From NCBI GenBank assembly GCA_023249645.1, contig JAHFCF010000007.1, forward strand, positions 1 through 64,000: DNA of 64,000 nt, given 5' to 3'. Below the pieces are notes generated by a model, which ran no database searches, was not told the DNA's origin, and saw only the letters and a program-made list of their open reading frames with translations. A program made the translations under genes and the position numbers. How positions within the stretch are numbered: position 1 is the stretch's first letter; each line of letters starts with the position of its first letter. Positions 184 through 2,654 of this stretch are shown here, piece by piece. This stretch comes from Elusimicrobiota bacterium. Lineage in GTDB: Bacteria > Elusimicrobiota > Elusimicrobia > UBA1565 > UBA9628.

Positions 184-1035
184 ATGTGGGAGGCGGTGAT
201 CGTGGGCGGCGGTCCGGCGGGGCTCTCGGCGGGACTTCATCTTTCCCGGGCCGGGCATCGGGTCATTTTGGTCGAGAAAGGCCGGCTGGGGGGGCAGGCC
301 CGCGGCTTGGGCCGCCTTGAGAATTATCCAGGATTTTTAAGCATTAATAGTGATCGTCTCATGGATCGATGGCTGCGGCAGGCCCGGCTCTGGGGCTTGA
401 AGACTTGTCGTGCCGAGGTACGCAGGATCCGCCGTGCGCAACAGGGTTTTCTCCTGAGCCTGGATCAGGGCCGGGGTCTGTCAGCGCAAGCCGTGGTTTA
501 TTGCCCTGGCGCGATTTTCAAAGACCTGGGAGTGCCGGGGGAGAAGCGGCTCTTGGGCCGCGGCGTTTTCCATGAAGCGGGAGACGAGGTCTCGCGCTGG
601 AAGGGCCGCGCCGTGGTCGTGGCCGGCGGCGGCGAGGCGGCCGCGCACCAAGCCCTGGCCTTGGCCCGGTCAGCGCGTAAGGTGTTCCTCATCTGCCGCG
701 GCGAGAAGATCAGGGCGCACCGTCTCTTGCAGAAGAGGCTCGCCTCTTCGGGCCGGATCGTCAAGGTTTTTGGGGCCGAGGTCTGCCGGGTCCTTGGAAA
801 AAAACGAGTGCAAGCCGTCGAGATCCGCAGCCGCGCGGGGCTGACGAGGATTTCCGCGGCGGCTCTTTTCGTTTTGGTGGGGAAGATCCCCGCCCGCCTG
901 CCCTGGAGCCGGAGCCCCGCGGGATTTTTCGTGGCCGGCGACGCGCAGGGTTGGCCTTTCCGCCAGGTCGCCATCGCCTCGGGCGACGGCATGAGGGCGG
1001 CCATGGAATGCATCCGGTTTTTGGAGAAGCCATGA
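184..1035 (+). CDS. Thioredoxin-reductase-like FAD/NAD(P) flavoprotein lacking the redox CxxC
   Basis: The protein has about 283 residues and two dinucleotide folds. The FAD site is VGGGPAG near residue 8 and the second nucleotide site is VAGGGEAAAHQ near 147; a late VAGDA motif closes the FAD domain. Overall layout (LGGQ, NYPG, LGVPGE) follows thioredoxin reductases. Where those enzymes carry the CATCD redox pair just before the NAD(P) domain, this one reads VFHEAGDE, so both cysteines are missing. It may therefore pass electrons directly to a protein partner or act on another substrate (inference). Its stop overlaps the ATG of the radical SAM gene by 4 nt, so the two are probably co-translated. 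I chose ATG 184 over 178 because a -10 box ends 8 nt upstream and no Shine-Dalgarno is present. Confidence 0.85.
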   Translation: MWEAVIVGGGPAGLSAGLHLSRAGHRVILVEKGRLGGQARGLGRLENYPGFLSINSDRLMDRWLRQARLWGLKTCRAEVRRIRRAQQGFLLSLDQGRGLSAQAVVYCPGAIFKDLGVPGEKRLLGRGVFHEAGDEVSRWKGRAVVVAGGGEAAAHQALALARSARKVFLICRGEKIRAHRLLQKRLASSGRIVKVFGAEVCRVLGKKRVQAVEIRSRAGLTRISAAALFVLVGKIPARLPWSRSPAGFFVAGDAQGWPFRQVAIASGDGMRAAMECIRFLEKP

Positions 1036-2654
1036 AGATCATCGAACAGCGCCAAGCCCCGGGCTTGGCGACGCTCTATCTGGCCGAGCTTTCAGAAGGC
1101 CGCCGCATCGAGTTCGTAGACACCCTGGAGCCCGAGGTTCCCAAGACCTCAAAATGGGTCATGATGATCTCGACCCAAGTGGGCTGCGCCGTGGGCTGCC
1201 GGATGTGCGACGCGGGAGCCTTCGGCTATCAGGGCAATCTCTCCGCGGCGGAGATGCTCGACCAGGTCCGGTGCATCGTCGCACGCAACCCCGATCTGGA
1301 TGCCAGGCGCCACCCCAAGCTCAAGGTCCATTTCGCGCGCATGGGGGAGCCTTCCTTGAACCCCGCGGTCTTGGAGGCCTTGCGGCTTTTGGCCTGGGAG
1401 TTCTCCGGCCCGGGGCTGATCGCCAGCATCTCGACCGTGGCGCCCAAGAGCCCGGCGCTGGCGTCGTGGTTTGAGGAGCTCATCCGCATCAAGGATGAAT
1501 GCTATCCGCAAGGGCGCTTCCAGCTTCAATTCTCCCTGCACGCGACGGACGAGGCGGTGCGCCGCGAGATCGTTCCCATCAAGAAGTGGACCTTGGAGGA
1601 AGTGGCGGACTATGGCCGCAGGTTCGTCAAGCCCGGCGACCGCAAGGTGACGCTCAATTTCGCCCCAGGCCCTGGCGAGTCCTTGGACGCTAACCGCATC
1701 GCGGAAGTCTTCGATCCAAAGTTTTTCCTCATCAAAGTGACGCCCATCAATCCGACGCTGGCCGCGCAGAGGAGTCGGACCACGCATGTCTGGGCCCAAG
1801 CCCCCGAGTCCGTGCGTCAAGCGGCCGCGGCGCTGCAGGCGCGGGGCTTCGAGGTCATCCTCTCGCCGAGCTATCCGGAAGAGATCGAATCCGAGACTTC
1901 CTGCGGCCAGCTTTGGAGCGAGAACCTGAAGTCCGAGGCGCAGGCCGGTCTGCGCGCCGTCGAGCGCGAGAGCTCGGCCTACGCCACCGTCGATTCTCTG
2001 CCGGCCCAGACCGAGCTTTGGATGAAGGAATTATCCCGGGAACGAGCCAGGGATCTGGCGTTCATTCCGGGGAAGTCCGCGCTCCTGGTGGTCGACATGC
2101 AGGAGTTCTTCTTGAATCGGCGCTCACCGGCCTATCTGCCAGGCGCCCGTGCCGTGCTCCTGAATGTCCGGCGTCTTGTGGATGCGTTTCGCAAGGCGGG
2201 ACGCCCCGTGCTTTTCACGCTCCATGCCCACGAAGAGGATGGAGGGCTCATGAAGCTTTGGTGGAATTCCGCATGTTCTGCCGGTTCGCCTCAAGCGAGG
2301 ATCGCGGAGATCCTGGAGCCCCGGCCTGGCGATGTTTTTCAGAAGTCCCGCTATAGCGCGTTTTCCAATCCTGATCTGGGAAAGAGGCTGCGCTCCGAGG
2401 GGATCTCCCAACTCGTGGTGGCCGGCATCAAGACGGATCTGTGCGTGGAATCCACGGCGCGCGCGGCCTTCGATCTGGGCGTCTTGACCTTCATCCCGGC
2501 GGACGCGACCGCGGCGCGCACGGAGGATCAGCACCTGCAGGCGCTGAGATCCCTGGCTCGGGGTTTTTCCCTGGTGATGTGCACGGACCGGCTGGTGGAA
2601 GCTTTATATCAGACTCGCGGGCGAGAAATCGCAAAACAAAAAGATGTATTATGA
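1032..2654 (+). CDS. Fusion of RlmN/Cfr-like radical SAM domain and isochorismatase-type cysteine hydrolase
   Basis: 540 residues. Residues 1-310 resemble RlmN/Cfr: STQVGC-x3-C-x2-C (C52, C56, C59) for the [4Fe-4S] cluster, RMGEPSLN near 103, FSLHA near 167, and C291 in SCGQL, which matches the methyl-carrying Cys355 of E. coli RlmN. Two features depart from that family. The accessory region before the cluster is only about 50 residues, and the position of resolving Cys118 is Met45. Residues 345-525 are an isochorismatase/nicotinamidase-like hydrolase with an intact Asp-Lys-Cys triad (D355, K438, C471). No stop or start separates the halves. Natural substrates are unknown: RNA or a nucleotide for the first half and an amide or imide for the second are guesses. 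The upstream flavoprotein is a candidate electron donor. Confidence 0.85.
   Translation: MKIIEQRQAPGLATLYLAELSEGRRIEFVDTLEPEVPKTSKWVMMISTQVGCAVGCRMCDAGAFGYQGNLSAAEMLDQVRCIVARNPDLDARRHPKLKVHFARMGEPSLNPAVLEALRLLAWEFSGPGLIASISTVAPKSPALASWFEELIRIKDECYPQGRFQLQFSLHATDEAVRREIVPIKKWTLEEVADYGRRFVKPGDRKVTLNFAPGPGESLDANRIAEVFDPKFFLIKVTPINPTLAAQRSRTTHVWAQAPESVRQAAAALQARGFEVILSPSYPEEIESETSCGQLWSENLKSEAQAGLRAVERESSAYATVDSLPAQTELWMKELSRERARDLAFIPGKSALLVVDMQEFFLNRRSPAYLPGARAVLLNVRRLVDAFRKAGRPVLFTLHAHEEDGGLMKLWWNSACSAGSPQARIAEILEPRPGDVFQKSRYSAFSNPDLGKRLRSEGISQLVVAGIKTDLCVESTARAAFDLGVLTFIPADATAARTEDQHLQALRSLARGFSLVMCTDRLVEALYQTRGREIAKQKDVL

Follow-up and report, generated by a model that had tools for sequence, protein, structure and literature searches.

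What do a flavoprotein, a radical SAM enzyme and a cysteine hydrolase do together? The question is raised by the first genes of a 64,000-nt stretch of Elusimicrobiota DNA (referred to as the window; its start is the contig end), in which a gene encoding a flavoprotein is followed by one whose single-chain product combines a radical SAM domain with a cysteine hydrolase domain. A search of the open literature, which covered few subscription papers, revealed no description of these three parts together. As detailed below, the recurrence of their genes points to one undescribed reaction or short pathway, whose substrate is probably a small molecule.

Organization of the locus

The features identified within the locus are listed in Table 1. 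The flavoprotein ORF begins with an ATG codon at position 178, six nucleotides upstream of the start assumed in the initial annotation (184), and ends with a stop codon at 1033–1035. The 4-nt overlap with the fusion ORF (ATG at 1032, stop codon at 2652–2654), also part of that annotation, was found as described, and an identical overlap between the two ORFs recurs at several homologous loci. ORF reading, profile matches and Foldseek comparison agree in assigning a radical SAM half and a hydrolase half to the 540-residue chain, and all the residues named in that annotation (C52/C56/C59, C291, D355, K438 and C471) occupy the positions given for them. Confident AlphaFold models were obtained for both the flavoprotein (pLDDT 95.4, pTM 0.90) and the fusion (pLDDT 95.7, pTM 0.88). 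The possibility of a chance or misassembled fusion was ruled out by its conservation across many species.

Table 1. Features of the flavoprotein and fusion genes (positions within the window).
Feature	Position	Strand	Evidence or remark
TrxR-like FAD/NAD(P)H flavoprotein, no CxxC, 285 aa	178..1035	+	PF07992, 66.6 bits; TIGR01292, 181.5 bits; AlphaFold
FAD-binding GGGPAG motif, residues 10-15	205..222	+	G10, G12, P13 and G15 invariant in 24 aligned members
Position of the TrxR CxxC, here E133-A-G-D136	574..585	+	alignment to solved TrxR 4zn0
NAD(P)H-binding AGGGEAA motif, residues 149-155	622..642	+	G150 invariant, G152 nearly so (alignment)
ATGA overlap, flavoprotein stop/fusion start	1032..1035	+	4 nt, read from the sequence
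Fusion protein, radical SAM domain and cysteine hydrolase domain	1032..2654	+	540 aa
RlmN-like radical SAM domain, approx. residues 1-320	1032..1991	+	TIGR00048; Foldseek 6fz6, 3rfa, 5hr7
M45 at the RlmN C118 site (second catalytic Cys missing)	1164..1166	+	alignment to E. coli RlmN
CxxxCxxC [4Fe-4S] motif, C52/C56/C59	1185..1208	+	invariant
C291, equivalent of methyl-carrying RlmN C355, SCGQL motif	1902..1904	+	alignment
Isochorismatase-fold cysteine hydrolase domain, residues 349-519	2076..2588	+	PF00857, 150.6 bits (cut-off 27)
Triad residue D355	2094..2096	+	60/60; archaeal 32/32
Triad residue K438	2343..2345	+	60/61; archaeal 32/32
Triad residue C471	2442..2444	+	61/62; archaeal 32/32

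Distribution and linkage of the three genes

The family, either fused or encoded by adjoining genes, is present in 41 of 97 related genomes (E ≤ 1e-60, manual count) and in 54 of 341 genomes of the phylum (E ≤ 1e-30). Analysis of GTDB representatives revealed bacterial carriers among Elusimicrobiota, Myxococcota and other former Deltaproteobacteria, Bdellovibrio bins, Krumholzibacteriota, WOR-3, Coatesbacteria, Aminicenantes and Pseudothermotoga, as well as archaeal carriers among Thermoplasmata and in one Heimdallarchaeote; nearly all of these are metagenome bins, so individual phylum labels may be wrong. Profile searches around three of the carrier bins identified the family in 4 of 247 (Deltaproteobacterium), 16 of 195 (Myxococcota) and 44 of 293 (Thermoplasmata) genomes. 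The family is therefore widespread yet patchy in its distribution.

Outside Elusimicrobiota, the radical SAM enzyme and the hydrolase are encoded by separate genes, yet these adjoin each other and the flavoprotein gene, and in about 12 phyla, bacterial as well as archaeal, the unfused genes are tightly packed into an operon. At the 52 loci with enough flanking sequence on either side, the radical SAM gene is adjoined by the flavoprotein gene in 47 cases and by the hydrolase gene in 45, with all three genes together in 40. The order hydrolase-flavoprotein-radical SAM was observed at 33 of 35 Thermoplasmatota loci; flavoprotein-radical SAM-hydrolase and radical SAM-hydrolase-flavoprotein arrangements also occur. 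Besides the radical SAM:hydrolase fusion there is a second kind, hydrolase:flavoprotein, found in one genome (L114:1424-2950, a single frame of 508 aa). These counts bear out the proposal that the three parts make up one conserved unit, and neither of the patterns that had been named as speaking against it, i.e. a fusion peculiar to this contig or unlinked halves lacking the flavoprotein, was found.

The distance matrices of the three proteins from 24 distant non-fused loci are correlated (r = 0.74-0.77, with 0 of 2000 permutations as high), which supports co-inheritance but does not prove contact, since vertical descent adds to the correlation. The linkage has exceptions: the fusion gene stands without an adjacent flavoprotein gene at 5 Elusimicrobiota loci, and several Myxococcota have only the flavoprotein and radical SAM genes side by side, their nearest hydrolase homologue being located elsewhere and fused to another domain. 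Two homologues of the latter kind (Myxococcota; L176:1498-2712 and L180:682-2103), in which the extra domain is N-terminal, adjoin a gene with PilZ-like repeats (named by eye). The partnership is conserved and the catalytic residues are intact, the folds being those predicted by modelling; it is very likely that the three proteins serve one pathway.

The flavoprotein

The flavoprotein is more similar in sequence to thioredoxin reductase (TrxR; 4e-40) than to FNR chains (1e-12), and its TIGR01292 (TrxR) score is under the cut-off of 343 bits. It had been described as lacking CxxC, and this proved to be a property of the whole family: the motif is missing from its TrxR site in all 61 flavoproteins checked and, likewise, in all 36 of a second batch. 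CxxC sequences at other places were detected in 2 members. It is plausible that the flavoprotein feeds the radical SAM cluster and that the hydrolase serves the same pathway.

The radical SAM half and its relation to RlmN

Foldseek places the radical SAM half of the fusion on RlmN. The RlmN model of NCBIfam (TIGR00048) matches residues 2-303 with 83 bits (E 1.9e-23; cut-off 290), the Cfr models give 68-70 bits (cut-offs 468-550), and the Pfam Radical_SAM match (residues 46-219; 25.0 bits) is slightly below the Pfam cut-off. The TIGR00048 alignment spans positions 70-351 of the 355 in the profile, leaving unmatched the first 69, which represent the N-terminal helical domain of RlmN; the unfused radical SAM members are about as short. 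The motifs C-x3-C-x2-C, MGEP, SLH and CGQL are retained in the family. The cluster cysteines and C291 are present in every radical SAM sequence that reaches them (approx. 120 sequences), the C291 column being Cys in 82 of 82 sequences and in 33 of 33 archaeal sequences having this column. At the site of RlmN C118, none of the approx. 120 sequences has a Cys, this position being occupied by M, I, N, V, L, T, R, W or H instead.

The known class A radical SAM methylases act on RNA and depend on two cysteines. In RlmN, C118 is required to resolve and release the enzyme-RNA adduct, and a C118A variant was caught as a covalent adduct (PDB 5hr6, 5hr7; PMC9692996). Since the second catalytic Cys and the N-terminal domain are missing, and the scores are far below the cut-offs, membership of the analyzed system in RlmN/Cfr was ruled out, and RNA methylation of the RlmN/Cfr type, which the initial annotation had drawn upon, is unlikely.

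The module might still encode a new kind of RNA methyltransferase, a relative of RlmN/Cfr acting on a base in tRNA or rRNA. The flavoprotein would then serve as its reductant, and the hydrolase would either be a passenger or process the modified base. The RlmN-like core, recognizable by sequence, by predicted fold and by the four retained motifs, would fit such an enzyme, as would the self-contained character of the operon (see below), because self-contained operons without fixed neighbours are common among RNA-modification genes. This explanation is nevertheless considered unlikely: the N-terminal domain is missing (with unfused members about as short), the cysteine needed for adduct resolution (PMC9692996) is never present, known RNA methylation has no use for the hydrolase, which is a near-constant partner here, and the window's own genome already contains a separate RlmN-like gene. 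A small molecule is favoured over RNA as the substrate with fairly high confidence.

A second RlmN-like paralogue (36% identical) is encoded within the module cluster of one further locus (L064:4711-5949), in which a B12-radical SAM gene lies between this paralogue and the flavoprotein gene. It also seems to lack an equivalent of C118.

The hydrolase half

The hydrolase half matches isochorismatase-fold hydrolases in Foldseek comparison, and its triad is conserved throughout the family almost without exception (Table 1). In one fusion (L099:4335-5849, the same as L030) the catalytic Lys and Cys are both absent, the radical SAM half remaining intact. The domain scored 25.8 bits with the nicotinamidase model (cut-off 174), 62.7 bits with the RutB model (cut-off 378) and 49.4 bits with the biuret amidohydrolase model (cut-off 370). 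It lies nearer to isochorismatase and to ureido/carbamoyl and biuret hydrolases than to nicotinamidase, and a nicotinamide-type substrate, as suggested previously, is not specially favoured.

Genomic neighbourhood of the module

Outside Elusimicrobiota, no constant further neighbour of the module was found in the other phyla or in archaea (Thermoplasmatota included); the core unit therefore seems to be self-contained. In two Myxococcota-type bins (L130 and L149), by-eye inspection identified a glycyl radical enzyme-like gene with its activase, both upstream and on the opposite strand; in four archaeal genomes with a syntenic arrangement (L243, L244, L245 and L268), it identified a gene for an ArsM-like methyltransferase upstream of the module.

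In one Elusimicrobiota family, the module (flavoprotein and fusion genes) terminates a DUF2520-like-panB-panC-coaC-coaB-coaX-panD operon (L083, L088, L089, L091, L093, L104, L194 and L197; in L194 the panD and flavoprotein genes overlap by 4 nt). L148, L111 and L128 also have a pan cluster or panB in the vicinity of the module, bioY adjoins it in L116 and is near it in L093, and folP, thiC or bioF/bioD are near it in some loci. Such an environment would be consistent with a vitamin- or cofactor-linked step near pantothenate/CoA synthesis, in which the module would serve to make, repair or recycle a compound resembling a cofactor. At most loci, however, there are no such neighbours, and the window's own genus has no PanB. 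The specific version of this explanation, in which the module replaces PanD in beta-alanine synthesis, was ruled out, since PanD is present in 26 of the 35 carrier genomes that are not close relatives; it is also contradicted by the above family, which has both in one operon. Among close relatives, PanD is missing from 29 of 31 PanB-positive module carriers, compared to 20 of 42 non-carriers, a deficit that looks like a lineage effect. A cofactor-linked role is, on balance, rather unlikely. In the family and order to which the window belongs, PanD was absent from most genomes that have PanB.

Elusimicrobiota often add further genes to the module, encoding B12-radical SAM, tyrosine phenol-lyase-like, other radical SAM or chorismate mutase proteins. 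The B12-binding radical SAM gene is often placed directly after the fusion gene; one of its products is a 653-aa protein (L051:449-2410) with relatives in L058, L060, L068 and L107, and in L058 it is followed by the tyrosine phenol-lyase-like gene, with 4-nt overlaps. These additions would fit a secondary-metabolite pathway in which the core would modify an aromatic compound derived from tyrosine/phenol or chorismate, the B12-radical SAM enzyme, the beta-eliminating lyase and other radical SAM enzymes catalyzing further steps. Near the module, the B12-binding radical SAM gene was detected in more than 12 Elusimicrobiota genomes, the tyrosine phenol-lyase-like gene in 6, and chorismate mutase in 4-5 genomes of the window's own genus. 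Against this, none of them was found near the module outside Elusimicrobiota, which led to their rejection as core parts, and the window's own genome has no B12-radical SAM enzyme; given this confinement and absence, they are add-ons at most. An aromatic secondary-metabolite pathway is accordingly regarded as very unlikely.

Proposed reaction

Our preferred outline is that of a redox-fed radical SAM enzyme and a hydrolase acting on a small molecule, with the identity of the substrate left open; we give this outline as a whole an even chance of being correct. Co-localised genes do not show direct electron transfer, and we infer this transfer, the reaction and the substrate from the features described above. 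In the first step, the flavoprotein, devoid of the CxxC, would take up electrons from NAD(P)H at its FAD and pass them to the radical SAM protein, either directly or via a ferredoxin or flavodoxin. The [4Fe-4S] cluster expected to be bound by the CxxxCxxC motif would then convert SAM to a 5'-deoxyadenosyl radical. In the third step, C291 may hold a SAM-derived methyl group, as in RlmN, lose a hydrogen from it to the 5'-deoxyadenosyl radical, and attach the resulting CH2 to the substrate at an sp2 carbon. Because the enzyme has no counterpart of RlmN C118, the thioether-bound intermediate would need another route of release, possibly aided by the flavoprotein or another residue; this is the weakest step of the scheme. 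Finally, the Asp-Lys-Cys hydrolase would act on a precursor or product, cutting a bond of the amide, imide or ureido type, and fusion of the hydrolase to the radical SAM half would allow a labile intermediate to be channelled.

It is about as likely as not that C291 acts as a carbon carrier in the manner of RlmN, and this residue could have a role other than that of methyl carrier. Taken together, we tentatively propose, at somewhat less than even confidence, an undescribed system of about a dozen phyla, in which an RlmN-derived enzyme without the second Cys performs one-carbon transfer, or other radical chemistry at C291, on a small molecule; a flavoprotein and a cysteine hydrolase would be dedicated to it, the former as its reductant.

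If correct, this would be the first branch of class A radical SAM methylases known to us whose substrates are small molecules. A widespread relative lacking one Cys and the N-terminal domain, and having two constant partners, would show how class A chemistry has moved to another substrate, and how an enzyme without C118 can let go of its bound intermediate. It would perhaps also reveal the reductant of class A chemistry, the reductant of the RlmN cysteinyl radical having been called unidentified (PMC9692996). With its three genes, the unit is small enough to be reconstituted directly.

Comparison with known systems

The radical SAM domain has the radical SAM core, CxxxCxxC, MGEP and CGQL motifs, the Cys equivalent to C355 and the predicted fold in common with RlmN/Cfr, but differs from them in being fused to, or encoded next to, a hydrolase, in its pairing with a flavoprotein, and in the lack of both C118 and the N-terminal domain. 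The flavoprotein shares FAD and NAD(P)H domains with low-Mr thioredoxin reductases and TrxR-like ferredoxin-NADP reductases; unlike TrxR, it has no CxxC, is approx. 285 aa long, scores below the TrxR cut-off and is tied to a radical SAM operon. The fold and the Asp-Lys-Cys triad of the hydrolase are those of RutB, biuret/triuret hydrolase, N-carbamoylsarcosine amidase, maleamate amidase NicF and nicotinamidase, whereas its scores are far under all the specific NCBIfam cut-offs and its genomic partners are nearly constant. In contrast to true isochorismatases (EntB, PhzD), it retains the catalytic Cys, which is replaced by Gly in the aligned EntB.
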